From Odiellus spinosus (taxonomy: Eukaryota > Arthropoda > Arachnida > Opiliones > Phalangiidae), in the NCBI GenBank assembly GCA_963920705.1, contig OY987230.1:11681320-11745319 (forward strand): 64,000 nucleotides of DNA, in the 5' to 3' direction. Below the pieces are notes generated by a model, which was given only the letters and a program-made list of their open reading frames with translations, was not told the DNA's origin and did no database searches. The position numbers and the translations under genes were made by a program. Of the stretch, positions 5,069 through 50,030 are shown one piece after another. Each line of letters opens with the position of its first letter. Positions within the stretch are counted from its first letter, which is position 1.

Positions 5069-5311
5069 TGGTTTTGTCAGTTGATGACTGATTCCTTCAA
5101 ATTCCATTTCCTTTATCTACGTTGCGTAAATACAAGATTATTCGCACTAGACTATGTCCTCCGAAGTTAAGAAACGTAACCTTCCAAATGGTTTTGTCAG
5201 TTGATGACTGATTCCTTCAAATTCCATTTCCTTTATCTACGTTGCGTAAATACAAGATTATTCGCACTAGACTATGTCCTCCGAAGTTAAGAAACGTAAC
5301 CTTCCAAATGG
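5069..5311. repeat. Exact 120-bp tandem duplication
   Basis: Bases 5069-5191 repeat without any change at 5189-5311 (period exactly 120). The left flank and the right flank differ after GG. No mobile-element ends are visible, so a recent segmental slip, unequal exchange or an assembly stutter are the possible causes. A 71-codon minus-strand frame (5217-5432) overlaps the second copy but matches nothing I know. Confidence 0.95.
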
Positions 5312-8453: not shown

Positions 8454-9694
8454 AACAGTACTATTTCTGTTGCGTTTTTGGCCGTTTTGGTGTCCATTTA
8501 CTCGGTTAGCGACAGGAAGAAGTTAGAAAGAATCCCCGCCATGGACGTCAGCACCAAAGCAATAATGATCTTTTTCCTAAACATTTATTTTATGCGTAAC
8601 GTCCGATACCCATAGCGATCGACTCTATGGGGGAAAATCTGTTATACAGTCCGTAGTCTCTATCAGGTCGGTAGTGAAAAAAAGGTTATCGACATATTTT
8701 ATTATCCATACTTATGTTCAATATATTATTTATCTTATGGCATTACTAGCAGATAACGGATTTAGAAACCTTTCCCCTAAGGGTGATTTATAGACTTCTG
8801 ATACCACCAAAACATATAGAATTTCTATTTGTTCAAAGTGCTTGAGGGTTTTTAACCAAAAATAACTTTTAGACGTGGTAAAGATACATAGTTTAGGTTC
8901 TCAAGCATCGATTTTTTTTGTATACATCAGAAAACTTAAGAATGAAAAGTATCAGATGTAGTTTTAGGGCTCCTCCCCCACTTTTTCTCGTCCAGATATT
9001 TCTGGGAGATTGCGAGCTCATTTTTGATGATGGAGAAATGACGGGACTTCCTCCGTCGCTGGTGAGCGAGGCTTAAGGGCAAAACCATCCTCCCAATTCC
9101 GTTGGAAAGGAATAAAAACACCCACCCTCCCTGGTCATGATTAAGGTTAAAGGGAGACGAGAGAAAAATTACGGTTATCTCTCAAAACGTCCGTTCTGAT
9201 TTTGGTTAGACCCCCTTTGGGAAATATCGTAAATCACCCGTTTTAAAGGGATGTTGAAACCAAGAGGTCAGCTTCTTTGTGATTCGTTAAATCCTAGCTC
9301 GTTCGATTTAAGTATACGCTGAAATAAATCTTTCGCAATCTAGGTCAAATGTGTTAGCTTAAATGGAATATGAAAATGGTTTTATAATTGAAAAATTGCT
9401 TAAAGATTAGGCCTAGGAAAGAAACTATTTGAGCGTGGGATAAAATAATAATGTCTAGATTTAATTAGACCTATTAATAAGAAATTCCATGCTATTTTCG
9501 ACTAATTTAAATAGCTTAGATTTCTCAGAAACATCTGTTGAAGATTAAATATACTATCTGGAAATTATATCTGGCTCTTTGGTACAGATCCGTTTAATGA
9601 TGGTTATCTTAATCCTTTGAACTCGTGTATAGAAGTAGATATATGTTTATATCCTGTTCATAATTTGGAGAGTTAACTACAATGTTTAATTTAT
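8454..9694. other. Spacer, no gene seen
   Basis: No supported feature. A 61-codon minus-strand frame (8936-9121) is of chance length and unrecognised. Confidence 0.5.
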
Positions 9695-10297
9695 CAAAAT
9701 CCCAACAATTGTTTTGAAGTAGGCTTAGCAAAATCCAACAATTGTTTTGAAGTAGGCTTAGCAAAATCCAACAATTGTTTTGAAGTAGGCTGAGCAAAAT
9801 CCCAACAATTGTTTTGAAGTAGGCTTAGCAAAATCCCAACAATTGTTTTGAAGTAGGCTTAGCAAAATCCCAACAATTGTTTTGAAGTAGGCTTAGCAAA
9901 ATCCCAACGATTGTTTTGAAGTAAGCTTAGCAAAAACCCAATAATTGGTTTGAAGTAGGCTTAGCAAAATCTCAACAATTGTTTTCAAGTAGGCTTAGCA
10001 AAATCCCAACAATTGTTTTGAAGTAGGCTGAGCAAAATCCGACAATTGTTTTGAAGTAGGCTTAGCAAAATCCCAACAATTGTTTTGAAGTAGGCTTAGC
10101 AAAATCCCAACAATTGTTTTGAAGTAGGCTGAGCAAAATCCGACAATTGTTTTGAAGTAGGCTTAGCAAAATCCCAACAATTGTTTTGAAGTAGGCTTAG
10201 CAAAATCCCAACAATTGTTTTGAAGTAGGCTTAGCAAAATCCCAACAATTGTTTTGAAGTAGGCTTAGCAAAATCCAACCATTGTTTTGAAGTAGGG
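9695..10297. repeat. Minisatellite, 33/34-bp unit, 18 copies
   Basis: The unit is CAAAATCCCAACAATTG plus TTTTGAAGTAGGCTTAG. Units with CCC are 34 bp and units with CC are 33 bp. I count 18 copies, most nearly identical, with the most diverged ones in the middle (about 9905-9965). The variant GGCTGAGC followed by AAAATCCGACAATTG occurs twice, three units apart, which shows that blocks of three units were duplicated together. Each unit holds the palindrome AACAATTGTT. Where three consecutive units keep a length divisible by three, a minus-strand frame (9609-9797) repeats an 11-residue peptide; I treat it as non-coding. Confidence 0.97.
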
Positions 10298-11163
10298 TTA
10301 TCGACGTCGTCTGACTTTACAATTATGCTTAAGTTGTGAGAAAAAGCGTTTAAACGAATGATGAGTTTTACTCGACATTGTTCTTTTTATAATTTTTTGG
10401 TTTCATTCTTCCTTTAAAGATGAAATTGGTGTATAATGTACCGTTTTAGGATAGACTTTATAGATAAACTGTTCTTTCTTAAAAAGTTATATATTGACTC
10501 TTCTTGGTTCCTGATTTCGTATACATTTGATCCGCTTTTTCTTTATTATATATTTATCTTTTTCTTCCCTGGGGAGGAAACGGCGCAACTATTGGGGGTC
10601 GGTCATCCTTCTACGTAATACGCACTCCTTATCTAATGGATGTTAGAAACTGATAGATACTTTCTTATAGAAGTTTTTTTTTTTTGGGAACTTTGATAAA
10701 TAGACACGAAAGTCGTAAAACTTTTTATTTTTCATTTATTAAAAAAAGACTTCCTTTTATAGATAAGAGAGGATCTAGTATTTTTAATTTCAACATTTGG
10801 AGATAAAAAGGCTACTGTATCTAAATCACACACGTTTCAATTAAGTTTTAGGGTAAGAGGGTATGTTTTTATCTAAAATCTGAAATGTAAAATGTGTAAA
10901 AGGTGAAGAAATCACCAGGACACCAGTTCAAGGATTTTAGTAAATTTTATTTTTAAATTGTTTTCAATTTGAAACTTTGCTTATTGGAGACAATTTTGTT
11001 TGTAGCAAATTATATAATAATCGTTTATTATGCTTCTTACATTTGTTCGTCTATTTTTGACTAAAATTCACTTATAGATTCATAAAGAAATCTAAAATTT
11101 TAATTTATTGGTTAGTTGTGGGTTGATATTTTCTTAATAATGTATCTCAACGTCTTGTTTATG
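10298..11163. other. AT-rich spacer, no gene seen
   Basis: Contains a 12-T run near 10674-10685 and a 60-codon chance frame (10436-10618). Nothing else recognised. Confidence 0.5.
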
Positions 11164-16856: not shown

Positions 16857-18181
16857 TTTGTTTTATTCGGAATTAGTTTGAAATTTTTGTTTTGTGTACA
16901 ATTCTGTACACTGCAAGCTTTTCTACATCTAAGATGTTGGTTAACCGGATTGGAAAGAAAGTTTGTAGACCACAATTACCATCTTACATGAATAAATGTA
17001 TCTATCTCAACCATTTCACCGTCCTAACTTTATAAATTGTTATTTTACGAGCCTCTTTTTGGATTTTATTCGATTGTTTTGGGAGTGGAGATTCCTTTTC
17101 AGTTTTTCCAAGTCTATCGTAAATCAAAGCCTTTTTCTGTTATATACCTGCACTTGACACGCGAGCTTTACATTCTATTTTTACTATTTACACCCACAAG
17201 TATGCATATACCGTCTATGGAGTGGAAATTTTATTGAATCTTTGTCCGATAAATTTTATTTTGGGCACACCTCCCGTAACAAAGGAATGGGTGTAGGCTG
17301 TTATATTGTCCGTGGTTTGAAACATTTAACTTGAAAACACGTTTCAGGTCATTTTTAAAATGAAATACTTGTTTTCCTACTTCAGTGTTAACCACTTTCA
17401 TAAAGCTGACAAAGACCTTTTCATGTGGGCTTGGCCATCTTGTAGTCCCTCAAAATGTTTATATTTTTACTCTCTAAAATCTATCTCTCTTTGGAACACT
17501 CTAGTGTTGGTCAATAGTACCAAAACCATTCTAGTTTTGGTCATAGTACCAAAATATTATTAGTTTTATGGAAATTTTAATTTCAAAACAATTTTCACTT
17601 TATTTTTGCATAGTTTTGTAGTTCGAATACCATTTGCACCATCTTTTTCACTATATCTTTAACTTTCTCCCACAGTTTATTTTTGACTTAATAACTCAGA
17701 GAGCCAAGACGTAGGTATTAATTTTGTGTGGGAATTTGGTAATATTGACAAGATATTTAAACTAGAATATCCACCGATATTTGGGCACGATAAGTGTGCC
17801 AGGCTTCAACAAGTACTATGCTTTTTTCTAAGCGCGTATAGTCCAACAAATTAGAGACCTTCAAAAACCCTAAAATCGCCCCAGACTTTTGCGCACCAAA
17901 TAAAACAGCCTTGAAAAAGGGGTCCTCCTACACAATTTTTTTTACCCAAACACTGTGTGGCGAATTTTAAAAGAGTCGAGTTAAAAACTAGCGTGGTGCG
18001 TTTTCGCCCAATTTCATTTTTGACAAGGCATCAATCGAAGGGGCCCCAGTCTACTTGTTTTGAAATCAAAGTGAAAATCAAATTGAATTTTTAGGTTTAC
18101 AAATATTATTTCAATCTTTTCGCTGTGTGAGCGAAAAAATGAAAAAATCAAGGAAAAATACACCGCAAAATAGTTTAGTTG
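16857..18181. other. Spacer, no gene seen
   Basis: No supported gene. A short imperfect duplication of CTAGTKTTGGTCAWAGTACC is present at about 17500-17555. The frames at 17037, 17360 and 18127 are 66-69 codons and unrecognised. Confidence 0.5.
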
Positions 18182-18596
18182 AAGGGAGAATGCAACCTAA
18201 CAACAAATGTTTTTTATCGATTCCTTATCGTTTAAATATTCCTAATCCATACCCAACAGTAAAAAAATTACAAATATTAAACAGAAATAATTTTAAAACT
18301 TGCCTTCAAATAGGCTTAGCTGGATTCATGGACTAGCGACCAATGACATTGATTATGGAGATCTTACATTCCCCATATAAAAGCCATCGATCAATTTGAT
18401 TGGTCGCTAGTCCTTATATGGGGCAGTTCAGGATATCTCCAGGATTCCAGCTAAGCCTATTTTGATGGTAAGTTTTAAATTTATTTCTAGTTTAATATTT
18501 ATTGTATTTGTAAATTTTTTACTGATGGACTAGGCCTATTTCAACGATGATTAATCGATAAAAAAACCACTTGTTGTTGATTTGCATTCTCCCTTT
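18182..18596 (+). mobile_element. Family B foldback MITE, complete copy
   Basis: The element runs from AAGGGAGAATGCAACC to GCATTCTCCCTTT, inverted termini. Further inside, ATCGATTCCTTATCG pairs imperfectly with its complement, AATAGGCTTAGCTGGATTC pairs with the block ending near 18462, and the exact 14-mer GACTAGCGACCAAT (18331-18344) pairs with ATTGGTCGCTAGTC (18399-18412). The element can therefore fold over most of its 415 bp. It has no coding capacity. The flanks are TTGA and TTAA-like, so a TTAA target is possible but not shown. Confidence 0.92.
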
Positions 18597-21246
18597 AACA
18601 AACGAAAAAACAAATGAATATTCCTAGAAGGAATGCTTAGTTGTGTAATTAGAGTCCGCCAAACTTCCCTGTAATATTGGCTTTTCTCTTCTATGGGTCT
18701 GCTTTCCTGGGTAAGCCTGAAGGAAATCCAAAAAAGTAGTTGGTGATGATTTTCTACGTATTTCTAATCAACTAGAAAAAGAAAAAGAAAAGCAATTAAG
18801 CTAGAGATCAAATAACTTACTATGAAAATAGGCTTAACTATAATCCATGGAGAGTTTGATAAATATAAACTATGCACTGCTTATAATTAGATTAGAGGTG
18901 AATTTTACTTCTCCTGCTTCCCAAAACGGCTAATTCATTTATTTTAGGTTGTTATTTTCCTTTAAGTTAGAGAAAAAATATTCAGTCCGAGAAAATTGAA
19001 ATAACTTTATAGAACTCTGAAATAATTGATATATAGATAAAAAGCCGCAACCGTGTGTACTTGTCAATATTATTGAAACATAATGTAATCCAATTTTGAT
19101 TTACGAGCTCGAAATTATGGGTTGGAAAAGTAATCGAATAATAATTTAATTTCGAGGAGGAGATGGGTAATCATTTTTTGGAGTTGTAGTCGCTGTAAGG
19201 AACAAGCCCCTTTTTATCTCTGCCCTATAATAGATTTCGTTGTAGACTAGTTATCATCAAAGCAGGCGGCGGGAGAAAGAAGATTCATGGAATGTTTCTA
19301 AAACACAGACCAGAGAATTAGATTTAAAGAGAAAGTGAAACTGAATGTTTTTTATATTATTTATTTTTAATGGAATTAATTTGACCCTCTAGAAAATATT
19401 GATGAGATTACTGACGTATCATCTTCCCTTTAAACAGCTTTCTCCGGCGAACCTACTCTACCATATGTTCCAAAAGAAATTAGTCGAGCGGGTCAAAGAA
19501 ATTCATTTCAACTGAGGTTTTTTTTTTCTTTCTTTATTTCGTTCTCCGCCTCTTTGAGTTTTGTTTCAATGTATATGTTTAATCAATCTTGGGAGTAGCG
19601 TTAATTACTTTTGGATAATCTGTTTTTCTACAGGAATTTGAAACCCTTTTAAGGCTGTAATTGAGTATAAGAATTTCCCAAATTCCCACGCATGTCCTCT
19701 AGAATAAATGTAATGGAGATGCAGGGAACGATTTTAAATCTCCTATGAAGTTCTAGATTGCTGCAATTTTATTAACTGTAATTTATCGACCCAAAGTGTA
19801 GCGAATATGCTTCCATTGAATCCATTCACAGGGCTAATTGCCAGAATGAGAATAGCTGATACGGGGTCGTGGAATGATACGCAATATCAAAACCTTATTG
19901 CATTACGCAGCGTGGGGGCAAGATTATTCTAAACTATTAATCAAGTCCTTGATATAAATTCATCGAAATGTTTTAAACCCAAAATAGTAAAATGAAATCC
20001 GGTGAAATCCTTAAAGTAGACACGCAACCTGATTCGATTCGGACCTTGTAAAATTGATCTCGCGCCAATTTAAACTTCACAAAAAGAAAAAAAAGTTTAT
20101 CCATGTTTATACGCGTATTGTGGTCTGTTTTTGGTTGAAAGTAAATGATTAACACCACTTAATTTTAATTTTCTCCCCGTTCCCCATACATCAAGCTTAT
20201 TACCCTTTTCAGTTTAAATCCCAAAACCAGTTCCGTGAAATGATCATAGTAAAAACCACTGTCATCTCCCTCAAGTTCAAATCTTCTTGAAGCTAGCGGT
20301 TTCCCTAATTACCCAACATTGCTTCTAGTTTGGTTAACAAAATATAGAGATCTATTTTATTTAATAAAACCCGTATAATCCCTATATTAGGGGTATAACA
20401 TTGTCTCAAAAAATGAAGTAATGGAAGAGTAATCTTTCCAGTCTTTTCTCCGATAGAATAAATTTGGTAAACCACGCTTTTTCTTTCGTTACTTCAATTT
20501 TCTCGGACATGAAAATTGTACATCTATACTAGAAGTAGGCCTATATGGCCACTAGAGCGGACTTTTGCCCGGGGTGCCCTCTTGAATGTCTCGGTGAGCC
20601 CGTGTTCTTGATGGATGTGATGGGGAGCTCCGAGAGACGTCTAGCGGAAGAATCTTTAACTCCCCGCTTCACTCACGGGTCCTGTTTTTGCTAGTTCCTC
20701 ATCTACCCTACCCTTATGTTACATCATAGCGTATATGGGACGAAAAAAATCGTCATTTTTTTACCCTATCTATGTTCGCGTTCGAGAGGAGTTAGTAACG
20801 ACTATTTTTTTCATATATGGCGTAATTTTGTATATCAATACGCCGTATCTTTTCCCACACTTCCAACTCCTCGTTAAAATACGTAAGGAATGCTTTAAAA
20901 CACGAGGGGTTCCCCATTTTATAACGGTTTCATAGGCTCCTTTCTTTCGAGTTGATTTGAACGACTTGGGATTTTTTTTTCTTCTTTAGCTTCAATCTCC
21001 TCTCTCTCATACATATATGTCCTACGGAATATTGGCTAGTTTTTACAGGGTTTTTATTTCCGCACGATGTACTGGAAGTATTTTTTCTCTCGTGGATCTA
21101 TTGCTATATAGCCTTTGGGGAAGTTTTCAACTTCAAACTTTGTAACTGGTATTTTGAAGTGCATTTAAAAGTGACATTACAGTCGAATGTGTGCCAATAT
21201 GGACATAGCAATGGTTGTTGTAATTTTCGTTTATTGGATATCAGCT
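18597..21246. other. Spacer with one GC-rich patch
   Basis: No firm gene. The patch at 20545-20700 stands out by composition and is given its own entry. Minus-strand frame 19973-20158 (61 codons) and plus-strand frame 20735-20935 (66 codons) look like chance. Confidence 0.5.
20545..20694 (+). CDS. Weak candidate: 49-codon frame in GC-rich patch
   Basis: An ATG in a fair context (TATATGGCC) opens a 49-residue frame ending in TAG. The product begins MATRADFCPGCPLECLGEP and is cysteine-rich (CPGCPLEC near residue 8, CFC at the end), with a charged stretch SSERRLAEES. The patch is clearly richer in GC than its surroundings, and none of the minus-strand frames is open across it. The family is not recognised. 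The frame is short enough to be chance in GC-rich DNA, so this is a lead only. It could equally be part of a CpG-rich regulatory patch. Confidence 0.15.
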   Translation: MATRADFCPGCPLECLGEPVFLMDVMGSSERRLAEESLTPRFTHGSCFC

Positions 21247-28732: not shown

Positions 28733-30253
28733 TTGGACCTGGGCGTGATATATACTGACTACACCTTCTAGCTGCAATCTCCTTTGTGTCAGTGGGATGT
28801 TTATGTTTAAGGAAAAAAACATGTTTAGTCCACTAGGAGGATATACAGTTTAATCAGAGATGGAGGTGAAGTTTTGATGGGAATTCTCAACTTGAAGTTG
28901 AAATTTTTAAGTATTAAATGGTTAAATGTCGCATATGACCACTGTAGCTAATGAATTTACTCTGTGGAAAGTTTAAACTGAAATTTATATTCTCTTTAAA
29001 CGCAAAACTGAAATTTCAATGGGGCCCCGCAAAATTTGGTTATGGGCCCCTTCATATGTATTTCCTTTGATTCCCAAAAAAATTCAAAAAAGGACCAATC
29101 GCTACGCCAGCGAGATTTTCACCGAAATGAAAACTATAGGTCATCCATGAATCCAAGTTCAAGCATGTTCTAGATTTTATCATATTTCCTTTATTTCATT
29201 TAGAAATATTCAAATTAGTTATTAAAATATTTAATTTCAACTCCACTACAAGGTATTAGCAATCCTTGCTATGATAAAGAAGATTAAATAAAAGCTGTCG
29301 AAAACGTACTTATTTCCAGCGAAAGTTCTTAAATTGTTTGAAAAAAATTGAGAGAAGTGTATCATTTCCTACAAGTAATTGTTTCCATTTCAAGCGAGTT
29401 TTTGTTTTCTTTCGCGTTTTCTTTAAGGTTGAATAACATTTAAGGCGTTGCCTCCTCTGAGTCTCTAGAAGAATTATCCACGGAGTATCGTCCAGTTTAA
29501 TTTTGCGTATCATTTTGGATTAATTCAAGTCTTTTTCTTTTCTTTCTTTCTTTTTTGCATTCTTTTCATTATTTTTTCGAGGAGAAAGTAATTTATTTTT
29601 ACTTTAAATGTGGAGAAAACGAAATTACCATTTTTTTCTAGCGTTCATCACAAGTCGTTGCGTGTTGAAATGTATAAGCCTTCTATGGAAACATTTTTGT
29701 CACGCTTAAATGCTAGTTAATATATATAGTAGAGAAAATTAGCTTGAAAATCTTATAACTTGGCCTTTTTCTTCAAATTTTAATAATGTTTATATATTTA
29801 TATTCGGTTTTATATTTTATTTCGAGGCTATTAGCCTTTTATTTTCATTTTTTGTTCGATCCTTAGTGGTTATACCGACACGTTTTCTCCCATGCGAAGA
29901 ACTTATTTCGAAATAATGAAAAACGCGGCAAATAATACATATTTATTAAATTTTAATGGTTTTTAGAAAATATTTGTAGACGGCCTTCCATTATAAATAT
30001 AAATTTATTTCATGTTTTGATGATTATGTTTAGAAGAAAATGTTTATATTATTTAGCTCATTTAATTATCTTTTAGACTAGCTTCTTGAGGTCTTGACCC
30101 TATTAAAAAGTTTGATTCGGCCAGAGGAAACCAAAATAAAACAACTTATTTGTTTTTTAGAGATATCATTTTTATATTATTCCATTGAAAGATACGATTC
30201 TATCACGTGCATGGTCAGTTTCCAAAATATCACTTCATTTTCAAAAAATCCTT

Positions 30254-30645
30254 AAAGGGAGAATGCAACCTATACAAGTGAATATTTATCGATTCCTTAT
30301 CGTTTAAATAGATCTAAGTCACCAGTACAAATATTAATCTAGAAATAAATTTAAAACTTACATGGAAAATTTCTTCCTACTGATGGGTCAGCCTCCAATC
30401 GAATGTTATTGGAAGTCTAGTGGAGATCTTGTCGTAACGACAGGCCTTTGCTCATTGGTCGCTGACTCTTCCAATGCGAAGAAATTCAGGATCTCCATGA
30501 GTTCAACTAAGCCTATTTTTAGGGTAAGTTTTATATTGATTTCTAGTTTAATATTTGTTTGTTAATTTTTTTGCGGGTGCAATAGATCTATTTAAACGAT
30601 AAGGAATCGATAAAAAATCAATTGTAGTTGGTTACAGTCTCCTTG
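30254..30645 (+). mobile_element. Family B foldback MITE, diverged copy
   Basis: It begins AAAGGGAGAATGCAACC after CCTT and ends in GTTACAGTCTCCTTGA, a mutated inverted terminus. It shares TATCGATTCCTTATCGTTTA, TCTAGAAATAAATTTAAAAC, ATGCGAAGAAATTCAGGATC and AAGCCTATTTTTAGGGTAAG with the other copies. A 67-codon frame (30362-30565) lies inside and is not a gene. Confidence 0.88.
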
Positions 30646-37700: not shown

Positions 37701-38331
37701 ATCTTTCTCCCTTTCTTAAAACAAATGAGGTATAAAATTCATACTATATTATTTAACCATGGTAATTATTCATTAGCATGGTCTGTTGCTTATGACGTTT
37801 TCTGTATAGAAAAAACCTTTTTTTAGATTGTTAAAATTAAATTGGGTTGACGACGATTTAGTTTTCCGATAATTTTTTAAGGGATCCACCCGTTACTTCA
37901 CGGTCAACTGACTTCTCAAGTTCTCATCTAAAAACCGCTTTTAATGAGCAGTGTATTTTTTTTCACCTTAAAAATGTGTTAGTAGTGAAGAGCGTCTTAA
38001 ATTTTTCAACCTCTCTATAGTTTTAATTTATAATTAGATTTTTTTTTAATTGTATTTCTCTTCTCGTTCGAAATCGGTTGTTTCCAAGCGTATATAATTT
38101 AAAATTGCTGTTATTTTTCTCTGGAAAATTTCGGTTGTCTGGGTCTCTGTTATAATCTTCCCTGGAAGGGTGAATATCGCAACCTTGCCGATTTTAGTTG
38201 AAATATTTGATTACTTCTTTGCAAGGTATTTCTGTCCTTTAGCGATGAATTCTATATTATGCAAATTCTAATCTCCGAAGCGCGTCGTTTACAAGGAAAC
38301 TGTTTTTCAGAATGGTTTGCAAAGAAACACT
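34701..38331. other. Very AT-rich spacer, no gene seen
   Basis: This is the most AT-rich part outside the tandem repeats. Stops are dense in all frames, and I saw no repeat family in it. Confidence 0.55.
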
Positions 38332-38741
38332 AAAGGGAGAATGCAACCCAATAACAAGTGATTTTTATTGATTCCTTATCGTTTAAATAAGCAATTAAAT
38401 ATTAAACTAGAAATAAATTTAAAACTTACCTGGAAAATAGGCTTAGTTGGATTCGTGGAGATCCTGAATTTCTTCGCATAGGTGGGTCAGCGACCAATGA
38501 GAAATAACCCATCGTTATGGCGAGATCTCCATGAGATTTTCAATAACATTCGATTGGTCCCTGAACCATCAATGCGAAGAAGTACAGGATCTCCATTAAT
38601 CCAGCTAAACCTATTTTTCGGGTTTTATTTCTAGTTTAATATTTGTTTGTCCATTTTTTTTTACTGGTGGATTAGGTCTATTTAAATTAAATGATAAAGA
38701 ATCAATTAAAAAATCACTATTTTCGTTGTGGCTAGCCCCTG
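38332..38741 (+). mobile_element. Family B foldback MITE, right end decayed
   Basis: The left terminus AAAGGGAGAATGCAACCC is intact. The right terminus has decayed to GTGGCTAGCCCCTGGG. The internal inverted repeat pairs CCTGAATTTCTTCGCAT and GGGTCAGCGACCAATG with ATTGGTCCCTGAACC and ATGCGAAGAAGTACAGG. It shares TTTAAAACTTACCTGGAAAA with relatives; the CTTACCTGG word looks like a splice donor in reverse but is part of the repeat. Confidence 0.88.
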
Positions 38742-41439
38742 GGAAAGATTCTGTTGATTCCCTTATAACATTTACATCTAGGGAAGAGTAAATACGGTGG
38801 GAGGAAACACTAACATCTTTGCACTAAACCACAATTAATAAATTAGTTTTTAGTGTACGTATATACTCGAAATCTTTCAATGCCTCGATAAACCAAACAA
38901 TTTTGATTTTTACAAAACTGTTTATATTCTATATATTCAGGTGAATAAACTTCTCGCTATTTCAATAGTTCGCTTTAATTTGGACGCGCGATCAATCGCA
39001 ATTTTGCCTTCTAGAGACAAACTTATCTTGACTAGCAAACTTTTGATCTCATTGAAACGCAATCCTCCCCAGAGATTGTGATATGTAGAACCGTTTTTGA
39101 TATACAGCGTAAAACGGGAAGTTTAAATTTCGCATTCAAGGCGAGCGTGATGTGAGGAAGTTGAAAGTTTTGGGGAACGAGTTTTTTAGAGAGGATATTG
39201 TACGTATGTACTATAAAGCGTAACATTTCAACGCGCGCGTGCGGCAGCTAGACGTATATACTATATTAAAGGGGATGAGTGCTTAGAAATTGAAAAGGAG
39301 AGAAAGGGAGGGAAGGAAATTGGTCAATTTGCATAGACGGATATTTCAAATTGGACGTTTTCCCAAAAAAAAAAGGGGGGATGACTCTCAGCGTTGCTCT
39401 ATAGTTTCTCGCGTGACAAGGAATACTTTGGGTTTGCTTCGCGTGTATCGCGTGTCTGTGGAAACACGAATTTCACTCTGAAATGGAAGCGGATTCAAAA
39501 CTAAATTTTACACTTTTTCTATGAGTCCATGATTTTTGAATATTGAAGATAGATAGCGTCGTACGCGCTGATATCTAGGATTGAATTGAACTTATCGAAA
39601 TACGAGCAGTATCATTCAGAATCATCTTAAAGTTTCAGCGCGATTAAACCCAAGTACCCCGCTTAGCCTCTATAAACCTGCCTTCGTAAAGGATCGGAAA
39701 GCTGAACTTTTCCCTATCTAATACATTGTAAATTTCAAGCTCTCCGAATACAGCCTAAGATATTAGGAAAGTCGTATCTTTAACCTTGCACGTGCTACAA
39801 ACTCAAGCTGATACGTGTAATGTATATGTAGGTAAAGAGGGCCAGCAGCTAGGGCCTCCTCTGATCCTGTTTGCTTCTCACTTTCCATTTATCCACGCGA
39901 TAGCCTTCCATTTTTTGATCGTTTGCAAAAACCTGGTGTGGATAGAATTGGATAAAGGCGAGGGGCTCCCCTGATTTTGTTTCACAAATGTTCTATGATT
40001 CGCCGCCGTTCTCAAAGTGGTAGCGATTTTATTTCTACTCCATTTACGCCATATTAGAGTTAAATTTTGAAACAGTTTTTCCTCACGACTATAATTTAAC
40101 AAATAGCGATACAGCCTGGAGTAAATTGTCCAATTCATTCAATTGTGACGAACAGAACTCTTTTGTCATCCAAATAAACTGAAAAGTTAGCGAAATTGTA
40201 TCTACAGGTATATAAATACGTAAAAAAGGTGACCTTGTCTGTTGAGAAATCCCTGAAAATGTCTGTGAAGTTTTAATACAAGTTTGTTTTGAACTTTATG
40301 ACATTTTATAAAAGCGATTCAGACACCATTTTTCGAGGACCCATGGATAATATTTATAATTATATTTTTTTCATATATATACAAAATTTTACACTTTATT
40401 TGAGTTGACGTGTTTTTAAGAAAACACGTTTTTAAAGATATAGCCAGCCAATAAAAATCAACTTCGATGAGGTAATTTTTCCCCGTGTATACCCCGAGTC
40501 TGAAGGCTCACGGTCTAGCATAGGCTGAGCGAAGAAAAGTTATTCCTCTTCTCTCCATGCCCGCTGACACAAACTATTTTGGTAGGTACGTTATTCATCC
40601 AGTGAATAGGCGAGTGGGATGGAACAGAAGCCGTACTCCTTGGGGGACCTGTCCTAGATTTTTGAATTTTTATTTATTCTTTAAATCACTTTAAACCGAT
40701 GTAATAATGCAAAATTGATCTTCGAGCCTTCGGTGTTAACCACTTCCATTAAATATGATCACCAATTACGTGCTTACCTAACTGACTACAGCCTTTGATA
40801 ATGTTAAATACGTAGACACTTTAGTACAGTCAAAGTTTACAGGCTTGTACACCATTTACGTGGAAACCCATTGTAATGGAGCCTAATGTAACACTCATTG
40901 AAGTTAGTTTTGTGTTTGATCGCGTAAGTAATTATCATTTCCAGATTAATCTTTTCTTCTAGTTTATTTTGGCGGAATACGAGGTATACTCGTTTAACAA
41001 TGGATATCTACTGAATAGAGTATAAAGAACTATAGAATTTACTATAAAATTTAATGAAAGGCGTATCGGGGTGGCGCCCGTCTAGTCGCTAAAGTATAAA
41101 ATAGAGTAGAGGGGCCACGCGACGTGTTTTTAGGATATACACTTTATTTCTACCCAGTATACTCTTTTAAGATTATCCCCAAGAGATCTCCTCACCCCAC
41201 CCCGATAGGTTTATGTAAGAGAGTAAGTTTTAACCGTCCAGGGCCTCTTTGCGTTTCTTTTTCTTTTTTTTTTTTTTTTCACAAAAAGGGACACAGGGTG
41301 CCTTTTCTTATTCATGGCTTTTCGGCGGCTGGAAGATATATACAGGGCTACATTATGTACCAAACTGAGACTTCAATGTGTTGCAGCCTTAGTGAGAGTA
41401 TGAAGAAGAAAAAATAAATATATTTTTACTGATTCCTTT
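38742..41439. other. Spacer, no gene seen
   Basis: Overlapping frames at 39786-39974 (plus) and 39878-40138 (minus, 86 codons) and a 63-codon frame at 39290-39481 are unrecognised. An 11-bp inverted pair TATCGGGGTGG (41064-41074) and CCACCCCGATA (41197-41207) lies 122 bp apart and may mark the ends of a small unidentified element. Confidence 0.5.
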
Positions 41440-41710
41440 AAAGGGAGAATGTAAAGTCTAAAAACAAGTAATTTTTTTATAGATTGCTTATCGTTTAAAT
41501 AGGCCTAATCCACCAGTAAAATAATTTACAAACAAATATTAAACTAGAAATAAATTTGAAACTTACTATCAAAATAGGCTTAGCATGGTGATTCTGAATT
41601 AGTGAGTGACTAATGAGCAAAAGCCCGTCGTTAAGGCGAGATCTCCACGAGACTTTCAATAACATACGATTGCTCGCTGACCCATCAATGCGAAGAAATT
41701 CAGGATCTCT
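41440..41710 (+). mobile_element. Family B foldback MITE, truncated
   Basis: It begins AAAGGGAGAATGTAAAG after CCTTT and shares GATTGCTTATCGTTTAAAT, AATATTAAACTAGAAATAAA, AAAATAGGCTTAGC and ATCAATGCGAAGAAATTCAGG with the other copies. It stops after CAGGATCTCT, so about the last 130 bp, including the right terminus, are lost. Confidence 0.87.
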
Positions 41711-42588
41711 AGACTAATTTCAATCGATTGATTTTATTCATTTTGATTTCACAAGAAAAGTTTGCACTCATTGCATTTTATATATGACACAATATATTTT
41801 ATTTCACTGTGAAAATACAATGGATTAAAAACCTGTGCACCTTAAGGGTTTTAAGGTAATATTAGTTTAGCTTTCTTGATATATCTTTCTCAAGATGAAA
41901 CGAAGTTTCCTTCGGGCGACTTTCTATTTAGGGAACCTTTTTTTTTTTTTTAATCCCTAGTTTCTCTTTCATGAAAATTAAAGTCCATTTCACTTATTTA
42001 AGGGATACGTGGAAAGCTATAGCTTCGTTTAACACTTAAATATTAATAGCCTTAGTTAAAAGAGGTATTGTACCTATGGTTGTATCGTAAACTGCGTTTG
42101 AACTCGTCTAAGTCTAGACCGATTCTCCATTTAAGAGATTTTTCCACCATCTTTTCTCTCTTTAGTGATTTCTCCGTTTGAGGAAATGAAACTAGTGGGT
42201 TATAAGGCTCGGGATTAGGAATATAAACATGAAATAAAAGATATACTTGTAGGTTAAACCTTTATTAGTTTTAATTTATCAGGCACTAGAATATTTCCGA
42301 TTTTACTCTCCAATAACTCCATAGATTTATTTCTTTCAGGCGTAAGTTTTTCAGCCCCAAGGATTTAAATAGATTTCACTTTTTTCTTCCCTGAGAAGGT
42401 TTTTAGTGAATTCTTAAAAATCACACTTTTGAGAGAGAAGTGGGAATAGATACGATATTTTTGTATCTCGTGTCTATAAATTTGAGACGATTTGCTGAAG
42501 AAATTTAAAGTGAATTCCATTGATACTATTTAAAAGGGTTATTGAACCCCACAAATAATTAATCATTACATTTTTAGGTGTATTATTA
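41711..42588. other. Left flank of the 2.36-kb array
   Basis: No gene seen. The last bases before the array are TATTATTA, whose final ATTA matches the separator found between units. Confidence 0.55.
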
Positions 42589-42860
42589 GGATAAACACGT
42601 TCGTGTTTATCCCTTTATCTGAACTCGAATTTCATCAGAAACCGTAATGTCTTTTCCAATGGACCCGCGGCGCTTGATAACTGAAAGCGTCGTCGTCGTC
42701 GTCGTCGTCGTTTCCCTCTTCCCACCGTCCACTGAATTCGAATTAATACAGACAAAGGTACTTTTGAAAAAATTTGATAAGACTTCGATCAGGTACAAGA
42801 GTATCTCTAGTTAAACACAGATTTCAATAATGAAATGTTGATTAAGTATACGAAGTAATA

Positions 42861-43258
42861 GAAAGTAAGGTACCTGAATGGGTTACAAAAGGGTGAAATC
42901 TTAAGCTTAGCCGAGCTTTACTAATTGCTTCAAAATGAATAAACAAAAATTTTATTTCTTAAACAGTAGAATGATAAGGAATATCCATCGAATTCGAGTT
43001 CATAGAAAGTAAGGCGCCTGAATGGGTTACAAAAGGGTGAAATCATAAGCTTAGCCGAGCTTTATTAATTGCTTCAAAATGGTAAACAAAATTTTATTTC
43101 TTAAACAGTAGAATGATAATGAATATCCATCGAATTCGAGTTAATAGAGAGACAGATGCCTGTATGGGTGACGAAAAGGGTAAAACATATAACTAGCCGA
43201 GCTTTATTAATTGGCTTTAAATTGATAAACAAAAATTGATTTTATTAAACAGTTGATA
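42861..43258. repeat. Three ~143-bp subrepeats in unit 1
   Basis: Copies begin at 42861, 43005 and 43147 with GAAAGTAAGGTACCTGAATG or variants, and share GGGTTACAAAAGGGTGAAA, CTTAGCCGAGCTTTAYTAAT, CAGTAGAATGATAAKGAATA and CCATCGAATTCGAGTT. The third copy is the most diverged and lacks its end. The same trio lies at 45222-45619 in unit 2 and 47587-47984 in unit 3, so the subrepeats predate amplification of the unit. Confidence 0.93.
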
Positions 43259-43470
43259 AGTTTTTTTTAATGGCATTTTTTATCGTTAACGGAAAATTGC
43301 ATTTATTGGGTTCTTTTACTAGGGTAGCCCTCTTCAGCCGTCTAATTTTGACTATTATGTCATATCATGAGTATCCCATTATATTCACCCTAATTCACCG
43401 TAATTAAAAAGTTGGAATGATTTTCTTATCATTTGATTTTTTAACTTTAATAATATATCTCTTCTCGGCC

Positions 43471-43671
43471 TATATAAACGAGATTTGCATATTCAGTACT
43501 CACAGATGCACTGTACCAATGCGTGGTTTACGTTAGCGTTTAAAATTGTGGCGAGCCCTCTCGTTTGTGCAATGGTGACGTCTTCGATTGTTTAGGCAAT
43601 CGTTTCTCACCTATATTTCGGTGATAAGAGACTCATTTCTCACGATCTTTTGGGTAGAGTACTCGAATAAA
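43471..43671 (+). promoter_or_regulatory. Promoter-like segment with hairpins in each unit
   Basis: TATATAAA (43471-43478) is followed by the octamer ATTTGCAT (43483-43490) and a TTCAGT initiator-like word 24 bp from the TATA box, slightly closer than usual. A 29-codon frame (43506-43595) begins MHCTNAWFTLAFKIVAS. It is kept in unit 3 with a synonymous change but frameshifted by the 25-bp deletion in unit 2. Two hairpins follow: CGATTG/CAATCG (43585-43602) and CTCACC/GGTGA (around 43606-43624). An AATAAA sits at 43666. The parts are suggestive of a small transcription unit, but no function is claimed. Confidence 0.3.
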
Positions 43672-44165
43672 CCGAAGCGATTGAATGTAAATCGCCTTAC
43701 CTAGAAATGTGGCCAATATAATATAGGAAGTCACTGTAAAAACATTTCACAATGAGAGTTCTAGGGATTAAATATCACTCGAGTTGGACTTCATATCCTG
43801 CCAAAGTGCTCGGTTACACATGAAATTTATAGTTTAACGTTTTCAATCTCTACTTTATTTTTTAAAATACTTGAGTTTTGCGACTAGGATGTGCTTTAGA
43901 TCCACATTACAACTACGTAATAACGTTGCTATTAAGTAGTTGACCAATTATTGAAGTCTGTATCTAAATCACGTCTAACTCAATTATAATAAAAAATAAA
44001 GATTTAGAATTTTAAATAGGATATACGAAACGGAAATTGATGTCGGCGAGTTAAATAAACGGCCACATACTTCTGGTCTCCAGAATTATGTTCTCATGCT
44101 GCTTTAAAGAATTGTTTCGCTTTCCATGCTCATTTTTTGTCGATGCGATTCAATATTATAAATTT

Positions 44166-44636
44166 AATCTCTAGCTCGGTCTAGCCCGTCCCTCTTGTAA
44201 TATTTTAGGTAAGGCTAGGTTAGTTAATCCCTCGACCTCCCCCGTCCATCTGGTAATCTTTAAGGTGAGGTTAGGTTAGTTAATCCCTCTAATTAGCCAA
44301 TCCTTCCAACTAGTTAATCCTTAGCTCGGGCTATTTGTAATATTTTAGGTAAGGCTAGGTTAGGTTAGTTAATTCCTCGAATTAGCCCATCGTTCCAACT
44401 AGTTAATCCCTCGGGTTACCCATTAAATCAAGTAATCTTTAAGGTTAAATTAGGTTAATTAAACCCTGGAAATAGCCCATCCCTCCAACTAGGTAATCCC
44501 TATAACTCGGGCTAACCCGTTCCTCTTGTAGTATTTTAGGTAAGATTAGTTTAGGTTAGTTAATCAATTGAACTAGCCCATCCCTGTTTTACAACTTAGG
44601 TAAGGTTAGGTTAGTTAATCTCTGCCTTTCGAGATT
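44166..44636. repeat. Six degenerate TTAGG-bearing subrepeats in unit 1
   Basis: Units of about 60-100 bp each carry a version of TAATATTTTAGGTAAGGCTA or its AATCTTTAAGGT variant, then GGTTAGTTAATCCCTC and AGCCCATCCCTCCAACTAG. Several contain GGTTAGGTTAG, two copies in tandem of the arthropod-type telomere word TTAGG. The same block is at 46501-46971 (unit 2) and 48901-49371 (unit 3). Confidence 0.88.
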
Positions 44637-44955
44637 TGTACCAGGGTCTCAATTACGAATAGATTGAAGCCTCAATTAAACGCTTTAATTTTTATTCAGC
44701 ATTAGTAAGAATTAAAGTTCAATAAACCTATAAAGCAAAATAGTGAAATGTGGAAAAGGTGTATATTTTTGGAGAAAAAAGGACAGAAATTATACAAAAA
44801 AGAGGTTGCTTCGCACCCTTAAAAAAACTCTTTATCTAACTCGAATCAAACCCGTGAAGGGACAGAAATTATTTGTTAGAGAAAGAGCAATTTCATATCT
44901 TTAAAATTATAGTTAGTAGATTTAGTCTACTACTTCAAAGATTTTATTACTATTA

Positions 44956-47286
44956 GGATAAACACGTTCGTGTTTATCCCTTTATCTAAACTCGAATTTC
45001 ATCAGAAACCGTAATGTCTTTTCCAATGGACCCGCGGCGCTTGATAACTGAAAGCGTCGTCGTCGTCGTCGTTTCCCTCTTCCCACCGTCCACTGAATTC
45101 GAATTAATACAGACAAAGGTACTTTTGAAAAAATTTGATAAAACTTCGATCAGGTACAAGAGTATCTCTAGTTAAACACAGATTTCAATAATGAAATGGT
45201 GATTAAGTATATGAAGTAATAGAAAGTAAGGTACCTGAATGGGTTACAAAAGGGTGAAATCTTAAGCTTAGCCGAGCTTTACTAATTGCTTCAAAATGAA
45301 TAAACAAAAATTTTATTTCTTAAACAGTAGAATGATAAGGAATATCCATCGAATTCGAGTTAATAGAAAGTAAGGTGCCTGAATGGGTTACAAAAGGGTG
45401 AAATCATAAGCTTAGCCGAGCTTTATTAATTGCTTCAAAATGGTAAACAAAATTTTATTTCTTAAACAGTAGAATGATAATGAATATCCATCGAATTCGA
45501 GTTAATAGAGAGACAGATGCCTGTATGGGTGACGAAAAGGGTAAAACATATAACTAGCCGAGCTTTATTAATTGGCTTTAAATTGATAAACAAAAATTGA
45601 TTTTATTAAACAGTTGATAAGTTTTTTTTAATGGCATTTTTTATCGTTAACGGAAAATTGCATTTATTGGGTTCTTTTACTAGGGTAGCCCTCTTCAGCC
45701 GTCTAATTTTGACTATTATGTCATATCATGAGTATCCCATTATATTCACCCTAATTCACCGTAATTAAAAAGTTGGAATGATTTTCTTATCATTTGATTT
45801 TTTAACTTTAATAATATATCTCTTCTCGGCCTATATAAACGAGATTTGCATATTCAGTACTCACAGATGCACTGTACCAATGCGTGGTTTACGTTAGCGT
45901 TTGTGCAATGGTGACGTCTTCGATTGTTTAGGCAATCGTTTCTCACCTATATTTCGGTGATAAGAGACTCATTTCTCACGATCTTTTGGGTAGAGTACTC
46001 GAATAAACCGAAGCGATTGAATGTAAATCGCCTTACCTAGAAATGTGGCCAATATAATATAGTAAGTCACTGTAAAAACATTTCACAATGAGAGTTCTAG
46101 GGATTAAATATCACTCGAGTTGGACTTCATATCCTGCCAAGTGCTCGGTTACACATGAAATTTATAGTTTAACGTTTTCAATCTCTACTTTATTTTTTAA
46201 AATACTTGAGTTTTGCGACTAGGATGTGCTTTAGATCCACATTACAACTACGTAATAACGTTGCTATTAAGTAGTTGACCAATTATTGAAGTCTGTATCT
46301 AAATCACGTCTAACTCAATTATAATAAAAAATAAAGATTTAGAATTTTAAATAGGATATACGAAACGGAAATTGATGTCGGCGAGTTAAATAAACGGCCA
46401 CATACTTCTGGTCTCCAGAATTATGTTCTCATGCTGCTTTAAAGAATTGTTTCGCTTTCCATGCTCATTTTTTGTCGATGCGATTCAATATTATAAATTT
46501 AATCTCTAGCTCGGTCTAGCCCGTCCCTCTTGTAATATTTTAGGTAAGGCTAGGTTAGTTAATCCCTCGACCTCCCCCGTCCATCTGGTAATCTTTAAGG
46601 TGAGGTTAGGTTAGTTAATCCCTCTAATTAGCCAATCCTTCCAACTAGTTAATCCTTAGCTCGGGCTATTTGTAATATTTTAGGTAAGGCTAGGTTAGGT
46701 TAGTTAATTCCTCGAATTAGCCCATCGTTCCAACTAGTTAATCCCTCGGGTTACCCATTAAATCAAGTAATCTTTAAGGTTAAATTAGGTTAATTAAACA
46801 CTGGAAATAGCCCATCCCTCCAACTAGGTAATCCCTATAACTCGGGCTAACCCGTTCCTCTTGTAGTATTTTAGGTAAGATTAGTTTAGGTTAGTTAATC
46901 AATTGAACTAGCCCATCCCTGTTTTACAACTTAGGTAAGGTTAGGTTAGTTAATCTCTGCCTTTCGAGATTTGTACCAGGGTCTCAATTACGAATAGATT
47001 GAAGCCTCAATTAAACGCTTTAATTTTTATTCAGCATTAGTAAGAATTAAAGTTCAATAAACCTATAAAGCAAAATAGTGAAATGTGGAAAAGGTGTATA
47101 TTTTTGGAGAAAAAAGGACAGAAATTATACAAAAAAGAGGTTGCTTCGCACCCTTAAAAAAACTCTTTATCTAACTCGAATCAAACCCGTGAAGGGACAG
47201 AAATTATTTGTTAGAGAAAGAGCAATTTCATATCTTTAAAATTATAGTTAGTAGATTTAGTCTACTACTTCAAAGATTTTATTACT
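44956..47286 (+). mobile_element. Array unit 2, with 25-bp deletion
   Basis: Same order of parts as unit 1. Differences: (CGT)6 at 45055-45072, and loss of 25 bp at about 45902 between two CGTTT words, the signature of slippage or end-joining at microhomology. The deletion breaks the 29-codon frame present in units 1 and 3. The 24-bp palindrome at its start is intact. Confidence 0.6.
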
Positions 47287-47314
47287 ATTAGGATAAACAC
47301 GTTCGTGTTTATTA
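47287..47314. repeat. Duplicated partial start palindrome between U2 and U3
   Basis: ATTA, then the first 20 bp of the unit start (GGATAAACACGTTCGTGTTT), then ATTA again before unit 3 begins. The start palindrome is thus present one and a half times. A false start of replication or strand slippage in the hairpin would explain it. Confidence 0.9.
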
Positions 47315-49686
47315 GGATAAACACGTTCGTGTTTATCCCTTTATCTAAACTCGAATTTCATCAGAAACCGTAATGTCTTTTCCAATGAACCCGCGGCGCT
47401 TGATAACTGAAAGCGTCGTCGTCGTCGTCGTCGTCGTTTCCCTCTTCCCACCGTCCACTGAATTCGAATTAATACAGACAAAGGTACTTTTGAAAAAATT
47501 TGATAAAACTTCGATCAGGTACAAGAGTATCTCTAGTTAAACACAGATTTCAATAATGAAATGGTGATTAAGTATATGAAGTAATAGAAAGTAAGGTACC
47601 TGAATGGGTTACAAAAGGGTGAAATCTTAAGCTTAGCCGAGCTTTACTAATTGCTTCAAAATGAATAAACAAAAATTTTATTTCTTAAACAGTAGAATGA
47701 TAAGGAATATCCATCGAATTCGAGTTAATAGAAAGTAAGGTGCCTGAATGGGTTACAAAAGGGTGAAATCATAAGCTTAGCCGAGCTTTATTAATTGCTT
47801 CAAAATGGTAAACAAAATTTTATTTCTTAAACAGTAGAATGATAATGAATATCCATCGAATTCGAGTTAATAGAGAGACAGATGCCTGTATGGGTGACGA
47901 AAAGGGTAAAACATATAACTAGCCGAGCTTTATTAATTGGCTTTAAATTGATAAACAAAAATTGATTTTATTAAACAGTTGATAAGTTTTTTTTAATGGC
48001 ATTTTTTATCGTTAACGGAAAATTGCATTTATTGGGTTCTTTTACTAGGGTAGCCCTCTTCAGCCGTCTAATTTTGACTATTATGTCATATCATGAGTAT
48101 CCCATTATATTCACCCTAATTCACCGTAATTAAAAAGTTGGAATGATTTTCTTATCATTTGATTTTTTAACTTTAAAAATATATCTCTTCTCGGCCTATA
48201 TAAACGAGATTTGCATATTCAGTACTCACAGATGCACTGTACCAATGCGTGGTTTACGTTAGCTTTTAAAATTGTGGCGAGCCCTCTCGTTTGTGCAATG
48301 GTGACGTCTTCGATTGTTTAGGCAATCGTTTCTCACCTATGTTTCGGTGATAAGAGACTCATTTCTCACGATCTTTTGGGTAGAGTACTCGAATAAACCG
48401 AGGCGATTGAATGTAAATCGCCTTACCTAGAAATGTGGCCAATATAATATAGTAAGTCACTGTAAAAACATTTCACAATGAGAGTTCTAGGGATTAAATA
48501 TCACTCGAGTTGGACTTCATATCCTGCCAAGTGCTCGATTACACATGAAATTTATAGTTTAACGTTTTCAATCTCTACTTTATTTTTTAAAATACTTGAG
48601 TTTTGCGACTAGGATGTGCTTTAGATCCAATAGCTTCGTCATTACAACTACGTAATAACGTTGCTATTAAGTAGTTGACCAATTATTGAAGTCTGTATCT
48701 AAATCACGTCTAACTCAATTATAATAAAAAATAAAGATTTAGAATTTTAAATATTATATACGAAACGGAAATTGATGTCGGCGAGTTAAATAAACGGCCA
48801 CATACTTCTGGTCTCCAGAATTATGTTCTCATGCTGCTTTAAAGAATTGTTTCGCTTTCCATGCTCATTTTTTGTCGATGCGATTCAATATTATAAATTT
48901 AATCTCTAGCTCGGTCTAGCCCGTCCCTCTTGTAATATTTTAGGTAAGGCTAGGTTAGTTAATCCCTCGACCTCCCCCGTCCATCTGGTAATCTTTAAGG
49001 TGAGGTTAGGTTAGTTAATCCCTCTAATTAGCCAATCCCTCCAACTAGTTAATCCTTAGCTCGGGCTATTTGTAATATTTTAGGTAAGGCTAGGTTAGGT
49101 TAGTTAATTCCTCGAATTAGCCCATCGTTCCAACTAGTTAATCCCTCGGGTTACCCATTCCATCAAGTAATCTTTAAGGTTAAATTAGGTTAATTAAACC
49201 CTGGATATAGCCCATCCCTCCAACTAGGTAATCCCTATAACTCCGGCTAACCCGTTCCTCTTGTAGTATTTTAGGTAAGATTAGTTTAGGTTAGTTAATC
49301 AATTGAACTAGCCCATCCCTGTTTTACAACTTAGGTAAGGTTAGGTTAGTTAATCTCTGCCTTTCGAGATTTGTACCAGGGTCTCAATTACGAATAGATT
49401 GAAGCCTCAATTAAACGCTTTAATTTTTATTCAGCATTAGTAAGAATTAAAGTTCAATAAACCTATAAAGCAAAATAGTGAAATGTGGAAAAGGTGTATA
49501 TTTTTGGAGAAAAAAGGACAGAAATTATACAAAAAAGAGGTTGCTTCGCACCCTTAAAAAAACTCTTTATCTAACTCGAATCAAACCCGTGAAGGGACAG
49601 AAATTATTTGTTAGAGAAAGAGCAATTTCATATCTTTAAAATTATAGTTAGTAGATTTAGTCTACTACTTCAAAGATTTTATTACT
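47315..49686 (+). mobile_element. Array unit 3, with 10-bp insertion
   Basis: Same order as unit 1, with (CGT)8 at 47414-47437. A 10-bp insertion ATAGCTTCGT follows GATCCA near 48629, and a few substitutions are private to it. It is followed by ATTA and then by DNA not present in units 1 and 2. Its last 163 bp, with the following ATTA and flank, are repeated in inverted orientation beyond a spacer. Confidence 0.6.
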
Positions 49687-50030
49687 ATTATATATTTTCC
49701 AAAAAACGGATAAAGACGACCTAGTTAACCATCCTCTCCCATTGATGTTTATTTTAAATTCTATCAGTATCACTAATAAAATTAGCTAAAGATGGAGTTC
49801 CTTTAATGTATATATATTTATCATTAGTCCTAGGTCGTCTTTATCCGTTTTTTGGAAAATATATAATAGTAATAAAATCTTTGAAGTAGTAGACTAAATC
49901 TACTAACTATAATTTTAAAGATATGAAATTGCTCTTTCTCTAACAAATAATTTCTGTCCCTTCACGGGTTTGATTCGAGTTAGATAAAGAGTTTTTTTAA
50001 GGGTGCGAAGCAACCTCTTTTTTGTATAAT
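49524..50030. repeat. Perfect 201-bp inverted duplication at array end
   Basis: Bases 49524-49724 and 49830-50030 are reverse complements without a mismatch, separated by a 105-bp unique spacer (49725-49829). The left arm holds the last 163 bp of unit 3, ATTA and 34 bp of flanking DNA ending CCTAG. Because the arm includes flank, the inversion happened after the unit reached this place, or the structure is an assembly foldback. The arms could form a large hairpin. Confidence 0.97.

Follow-up and report, generated by a model that had tools for sequence, protein, structure and literature searches.

The 64,000-nucleotide (nt) stretch of Odiellus spinosus contig OY987230.1 analysed here (the window; the contig is labelled C6 below) carries a tandem array of three long units. 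The array is probably part of a non-autonomous Helitron-like composite element, self-nested at its own A|T sites (the bar marks the junction), lying between a host A at position 42585 and a host T at 50030, and moved there as a whole. Read on the minus strand, the composite consists of a 5' hairpin head followed by three bodies, each with a complete 3' terminus. The features on which this reading is built are the following, with the strand where one was assigned:

42586..50029, minus strand: whole composite element; 5' end at 50029 (TTATACAAAAAAGAGG), 3' end at 42586 (...GTGTTTATCCTAA)
42585: host A of the A|T target, left; same rule at 44/44 external 3' ends found
50030: right-hand host T of the A|T target; three other copies have gapless empty sites
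42589..44951, minus strand: unit 1 (X), outermost body, carries the outer 3' end
44956..47286, minus strand: unit 2 (Y), seemingly a crossover mosaic that follows unit 3 in its left part and unit 1 in its right part
47315..49686, minus strand: unit 3 (Z), innermost body, adjoins the 5' head
44952..44955: joint between units 1 and 2, ATTA; 3' end CTAA joined to the internal site TAGTAATAAAATC
47287..47314: joint between units 2 and 3, 28 bp, made up of ATTA and 24 bp of partial palindrome, such as self-insertion into the 3' palindrome would leave behind
42589..42612: terminal 3' palindrome (stem scan), with copies at 44956-44979 and 47315-47338
49524..49724: 5' hairpin, inner arm, with 100% complementarity to the outer one
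49830..50030: 5' hairpin, outer arm, preceded by a 105-nt spacer; its last base, 50030, is the host T
42613..42630, plus strand: subterminal inverted repeat CTTTATCTGAACTCGAAT, 3' side
49973..49989, minus strand: subterminal inverted repeat CTTTATCTAACTCGAAT, 5' side
42856..43253: internal 142-bp repeat, 2.8 copies per unit; also at 45217-45614 and 47582-47979

Structure and Ends of the Element

The three head-to-tail units measured 2363, 2331 and 2372 bp and were 99.2-99.7% identical in pairwise comparison. Units 1 and 2 differed by 8 substitutions (0.34%), units 2 and 3 by 13 (0.56%) and units 1 and 3 by 20 (0.85%), with four indels of 6, 25, 1 and 10 bp across the three. These counts match the lengths, the four indels and the few substitutions given in an earlier reading of the DNA from its letters (the sequence-only reading). 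The 24-nt palindrome of 11+2+11 nt with which that reading had the units begin, GGATAAACACG-TT-CGTGTTTATCC, opens every one of them and is a genuine element boundary. The ATTA said to separate all units was found between units 1 and 2, but the joint between units 2 and 3 is 28 bp long and holds the additional 24-bp partial palindrome. When the window was scanned for perfect stems of at least 10 bp with a loop of at most 6, the three palindrome copies and one unrelated 10-bp stem were the only ones present. Genome-wide, with 0-2 mismatches allowed, the palindrome was found at 521 sites in the forward reading, while its reversed control was found at none. The longest stop-to-stop frame of the first unit was 67 amino acids, so the element is non-autonomous. 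The window contained no Rfam match at gathering thresholds, and a tRNA search of it found none.

The units are only part of the element, because the array is followed on its right by 35 bp, a 105-nt spacer, the same 35 bp in inverse orientation and a copy of the unit's final 163 bp, likewise inverted, which extends to 50030. Read on the minus strand, the whole element covers 42586-50029 (7,444 bp). The three units do lie within the span 42589..49690 proposed earlier, which missed one end of the element, the right end at 50029. The 5' end reads A|TTATAC, and the 3' end is made of the palindrome followed by TAA|T, so that the 24-nt palindrome stops 3 nt short of the terminus. A subterminal inverted repeat of 17-18 nt is located 27 nt in from the 3' end and 40 nt in from the 5' end. 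The arms of the 5' hairpin are 201 nt long and 100% complementary; the last base belongs to the host. The hairpin is a perfect one of 200 bp.

Dispersed Copies and Insertion Sites

The sequence-only reading had suggested looking for single copies elsewhere, and dispersed, nearly identical copies do exist. In a search of the genome with the unit (443 Mb, 286 contigs), 38 of the 3410 candidates were scored, giving at least 73 matches on many contigs, each unit and fragment being counted. We compared 37 stretches around the best unit matches (loci with L numbers below). Where the right side fell within the stretch, the order was constant: one to four units, the loop, and the inverted 163-bp end. 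Exceptions were L029-L031, in which another sequence replaces the inverted 163-bp end, L041-L043, which have partial bodies, and the internally rearranged L044 and L045; L035 also carries an old, diverged copy. Each single copy compared had the unit, the loop and the 163-bp inverted end. Their flanks differed, apart from the common flank of L019 and L038 and from L013 and L032, which lie within copies of one repeat. The flanks of L019, L038 and L056 consist of a tandemly repeated sequence of roughly 0.38 kb.

The window and the loci compared yielded 44 external 3' ends, all of which read CTAA|T and show the palindrome followed by TAA|T; they were located by exact text containing CTAA, diverged ends being thus uncounted. 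The sequence-only reading would have been refuted by dispersed copies ending away from the palindrome and ATTA; the 44 ends speak in its favour, and the boundary at the palindrome is shared by the dispersed ends. With L056 added, the second base past the 3' end was A or T in 45/45 cases. The right outer ends read GTATAA|T; rare exceptions are L018 and L032, with GTAAAA|T, and L043, the end of which is altered. Nineteen queries made of joined flanks were searched against the loci compared. Three of them found gapless empty A|T sites with neither duplication nor loss (mismatches per 55 positions: 0 for L019, 0-1 for L032 and 3-4 for L013), and the other 16 had no spanning match within these loci. 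At three other copies, the element is thus inserted at A|T without target duplication. The ATTA of the window had been considered as a target duplication, which is contradicted by these empty sites, where A|T alone is present: TTA is the element's own end and A alone is host.

The same ends bear on another possible class. A terminal-inverted-repeat or fold-back transposon, having the arms of the 200-bp hairpin as its inverted ends, would account for a long perfect inverted repeat at one end of the element. It is nevertheless extremely improbable, as both arms are at the same end, the opposite end is an unrelated palindrome and the three empty sites show no target-site duplication. Copies bounded by two arms with a target duplication were not seen among the loci compared.

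L029, L030 and L031, three composites on contig C7, have in common at least 1 kb of other sequence on the 5' side (positions 1-1000), with short open frames and a possible intron. Aligned over their whole 4.7 kb, they were 99.9-100% identical. The extra 5' sequence may be captured host sequence. A Pfam search with five frames, three from L029 and two elsewhere in the window, gave no match.

Recurrence of Whole Arrays at Several Sites

The three-unit array recurs at L009, on contig C2, in different flanks. Compared body by body, the window and L009 showed 0, 0 and 0 substitutions, against 8-20 within each array. Over the full element, there were 0 substitutions and four length differences, of 6 and 25 bp in unit 2 and of 5 and 1 bp at the palindromes of units 2 and 3; the other differences listed correspond to flank at the alignment edge. 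The left flanks agreed at 137 of 500 positions without gaps, which is near chance, and the right flanks differ by eye. Since C2 carries these three units between other flanking sequences, amplification of the array at the window site is rejected. The whole three-body array has been copied in a single piece to one further site of the genome or more; an array can be a mobile object and not the product of its present site. The sequence-only reading had favoured a recent rolling-circle or replication-linked amplification over an old satellite. It was right that the array is young and no old satellite, and the element behaves as a transposon of the rolling-circle (Helitron) type, but the amplification did not take place here.

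Other arrays recur as well. L010, L011 and L012 have a common two-body array, with 0-3 differences per body, and L033-L037 have another, with 0-7 per body, the two bodies of which are 72-74 positions apart. Neighbouring bodies were 72-78 positions apart in L018, L023 and L033-L037, and one body of L039 was 74 positions from its neighbours. Differences of 72-78 between neighbours fit the joining of two subfamilies and not a local duplication. On contig C15 (about 3.34-3.36 Mb), L010 and L011 hold the same two-body array twice, in opposite orientation and some 10 kb apart, and another array joint is present between them at C15:3350177.

Joints and Self-Nesting

In the window joints, the 3' end is joined to the internal A|T sites 342 and 2684 (element positions) and not to the 5' end, and the units are devoid of the element's 342-bp 5' head. 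In the window and the loci compared, the internal sites receiving a 3' end were 342 (16 rows), 348 (6 rows), 385 (2 rows, which are one joint in two overlapping loci) and 2684 (20 rows), and those receiving a 5' end were 1920 (3) and 2684 (1). The five distinct sites are all A|T, AT representing 266 of the 2707 dinucleotides (9.8%). Site 2684 lies within the 3' palindrome, which explains the 24-bp remnants. Genome-wide, with up to two mismatches allowed, the site-342 joint was found 20 times, always exact, whereas a 3'-end/5'-end joint was found once, exact, at C8:6422788-6422817, where it may be a genuine head-to-tail pair or else reflect an element inserted immediately next to a copy.

These counts bear on the possibility of a rolling-circle concatemer, in which polymerase or helicase circles past the 3' end and produces full copies placed head to tail. 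The exact end-to-end joint at C8:6422788 is what such a process would leave. It is a single joint against 20 array joints into site 342, however, the units lack the 342-bp head, and neighbouring bodies come from different subfamilies in several arrays. We consider a concatemer quite improbable, and the rolling-circle origin attributed to the array in the sequence-only reading is disfavoured, given the missing head and window joints that lead from a 3' end to an internal A|T.

One complete nested locus (L056+L038) supports self-nesting. In this locus, the outer body is cut at GGGA| within the palindrome; a complete inner element follows, and then TAAACACGAACGTGTTTATCCTAA|T and the flank. The joint between outer palindrome and inner 5' end had one exact occurrence in the genome (L038), and three matches with 2 mismatches correspond to the site-1920 joints of L042 and L043, two composites in which a 5' end lies within a body. 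Were the nested locus mobilised from its inner 5' end as far as its outer 3' end, the resulting copy would bear a 24-bp tail. Such a tail, identical to that of the nested locus, is present at the outer 3' end in L016, L018, L020, L021, L022, L028 and L033. L019 has the flanks of the nested locus without the inner element; as the flank around both is tandemly repeated, simple allelism is not claimed.

Origin of the Middle Unit

Units 1 and 3 of the window differ at 21 sites, and 16 of these, those already different in L010-L012, were used in a mosaic test; the five sites dropped (77, 416, 1142, 1218 and 1897) were not different there. Unit 2 was like unit 3 at the first 5 of the 16 sites and like unit 1 at the next 11. 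By chance, such an order would arise once in 4368 cases, and slightly more often should two pairs of adjacent sites each represent one event. A single unequal exchange between two older units would best explain the middle unit, apparently a product of recombination and not of rolling-circle amplification. L028, of equal length to unit 3, was considered as its one-body precursor and rejected, the nearest units, at 8 substitutions, being other single copies.

It could be asked whether ordinary duplication in tandem on the spot, or a satellite growing through unequal crossing-over and nothing else, accounts for the entire array. A middle body resembling a mosaic of the two outer ones is predicted by such growth, and two bodies of L039 are only 2 positions apart. 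This process covers one step only and leaves unexplained the CTAA|T joints, the neighbours of mixed subfamilies and the presence of the same array in different flanks. It is very improbable as the sole process, and the second insertion, on C2 and with other flanks, refutes it as an account of the entire array.

Proposed Order of Events

We propose that an autonomous Rep/helicase element would supply the enzyme and that an array would be born by the insertion of one copy into an A|T site of another. Later mobilisation would start at the inner 5' end, proceed past the inner 3' end and stop at the outer 3' end, which would give a head-body-body composite. The middle body of the window would have arisen in a two-body composite like that of L010-L012, by an unequal exchange of one body with the other, and the three-body composite would then have transposed as one piece. 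Much of this order is readable from the joints, the empty sites, the complete nested locus and the array copies at several sites taken together.

A source of Rep is present in the genome, which contained at least 150 matches to PF14214 (150 of 184 candidates were scored), against 0 in the 14 control genomes. The two best-scoring Rep loci examined, L057 and L058, have a shared sequence that stops after the hairpin CCCGCCC-GTA-GGGCGGG, 7 nt and CTAG|T, as in canonical Helitrons; their ends are inferred from where the shared sequence stops. On C1 and C2, the nearest Rep match to the palindrome was about 21 kb away, among the matches listed (exact; C1 and part of C2). The element copies of L045 (contig C280) and L027 (contig C17) are situated about 5 and 9 kb, respectively, from a PF14214 match, which lies outside the element.

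Several observations weigh against this scheme. None of the PF14214 matches was linked to the ends of the element, and the two Rep loci examined end differently. Close neighbours exist, the two L039 bodies being accompanied by bodies 8-22 positions apart in the window, L009 and L010-L012, and there local duplication may have occurred. Among the sites dropped from the mosaic test, 77, 1142 and 1218 break the pattern; absent from L010-L012, they are read as probable later private changes of one unit. Unequal exchange also predicts a 24-bp remnant at both window joints, where one has it, and a later loss must be assumed; the differences of 5 and 1 bp between L009 and the window at the unit 2 and unit 3 palindromes indicate that such joints do change. 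The site-342 intermediate predicted by nesting, with the outer head ...ATATATAA|TTATAC, had no exact match in the genome and two matches with 2 mismatches. Since 20 exact joints exist at this site, there may have been few events, or another route. Finally, the partners share 1-3 nt (A or TAA) at the joints, so joining by short homology is possible.

Such another route could be one-ended joining, in which the free 3' end (CTAA-OH) of one intermediate is joined to an A|T site, either in a second intermediate or in a copy already resident, no 5' end being inserted, and a head-body-body composite is formed in one step. It predicts the A|T joints, and it predicts that the exact head/5'-end intermediate at site 342 should be missing. 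The complete nested locus, with both ends inserted at the palindrome site, and the composites L042 and L043, with a 5' end inside a body, show that ordinary two-ended self-insertion does occur. One-ended joining appears less likely than self-nesting. The two routes of array birth predict opposite outcomes for one and the same joint sequence.

We retain self-nesting followed by movement of the whole composite as the most probable course. It is possible, though somewhat short of an even chance, that the family as a whole builds mobile multimers by A|T insertion into its own head region and 3' palindrome, the terminator being passed and the arrays spreading as single, lengthening units. If true, a transposon would assemble its own satellite-like array before jumping. 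Tandem Helitron arrays and long satellite monomers are usually put down to readthrough or local amplification.

Arms of the 5' Hairpin

The two hairpin arms were identical in 32 of 38 heads, though the arm sequence varies from locus to locus. Six variants (substitutions or one-base insertions, at alignment positions 2, 6, 32, 71, 90 and 132) were present in both arms of their heads, a count that leaves out one old, diverged head in L035. Variants in a single arm were seen in L041 (variant 71 in one arm), and others in L012, L018, L022 and L032. Correction from arm to arm is therefore common. Arms that are alike within most heads and different between loci suggest that the hairpin pairs as a single strand and is repaired during movement; the correction would then take place in single-stranded intermediates.

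Other Repeats of the Window

Related, partly palindromic elements of about 0.3-0.4 kb were observed at positions 18175-18602, 30238-30642, 38316-38728 and 41438-41709. A 34-bp tandem repeat with 18 copies covers positions 9691-10300, where a 101-bp period was likewise detected, and a perfect 120-bp tandem duplication is located at 5069-5311.

Comparison with Known Systems

The comparison draws on parts of two sources, PMC4067079 and PMC5148889. With the canonical Helitrons (Helitron1) defined in PMC4067079, the element shares insertion at A|T without target duplication, the 3' CTRR (here CTAA), a 3' palindrome, non-autonomous copies and the reported tandem arrays. It differs by subterminal inverted repeats and a 200-bp 5' hairpin. 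Two further differences count against a Helitron assignment: the 5' end is TT and not TC, and the distance between palindrome and 3' terminus is 3 nt, where about 11 (10-12) nt is canonical.

PMC4067079 also describes the Helentrons and a proto-Helentron (5' TT, 3' CTAG, A|T insertion). The proto-Helentron of Phytophthora infestans resembles the present element in its 5' TT and A|T insertion and differs in its 3' end, CTAG compared to CTAA. In common with Helitron2 and with HINE/DINE-1 elements (PMC4067079, PMC5148889), the element has subterminal (asymmetric) inverted repeats, a hairpin at either end and tandem repeats in its interior; such inverted repeats in combination with a 3' palindrome also agree with the Helentron, HINE and DINE-1 group. 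In contrast to Helentrons, HINEs and DINE-1, the target is A|T (three empty sites, five internal sites) and not the TT dinucleotide, and the 3' end is CTAA instead of the CTAG or T-runs of Helentrons. As compared to mite HINEs, the 5' subterminal repeat is 40 nt in, instead of 2-4 nt, and the 5' hairpin is 200 bp long. Because these features are mixed, with a 5' end and a hairpin spacing that depart from the canonical type and a target that departs from that of Helentrons, we call the element Helitron-like; on its ends and repeats, it is probably best placed nearest the proto-Helentron and Helitron2 kinds.

As to arrays, PMC4067079 puts tandem arrays down to a bypassed terminator. PMC5148889 proposes that the composite Helitrons of Fusarium, which have several 5' ends but a single 3' end, inserted into themselves and were then mobilised by a mixed end pair; it leaves a tandem triple of Metarhizium acridum undecided between two self-insertions and rolling-circle replication. 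In the literature available as titles and abstract openings, with few subscription papers, no array followed as a mobile composite having a single 5' end but several 3' ends was found, which is not proof of absence. L042 and L043, with several 5' ends and one final 3' end, match the Fusarium type. The window array is the mirror case, with one 5' end and several 3' ends, which implies that the inner terminator was passed. A further difference from the Fusarium and Metarhizium composites, as far as these are described in the parts of the source used, is that 20 joints of one array type exist here and that given arrays recur at several sites.

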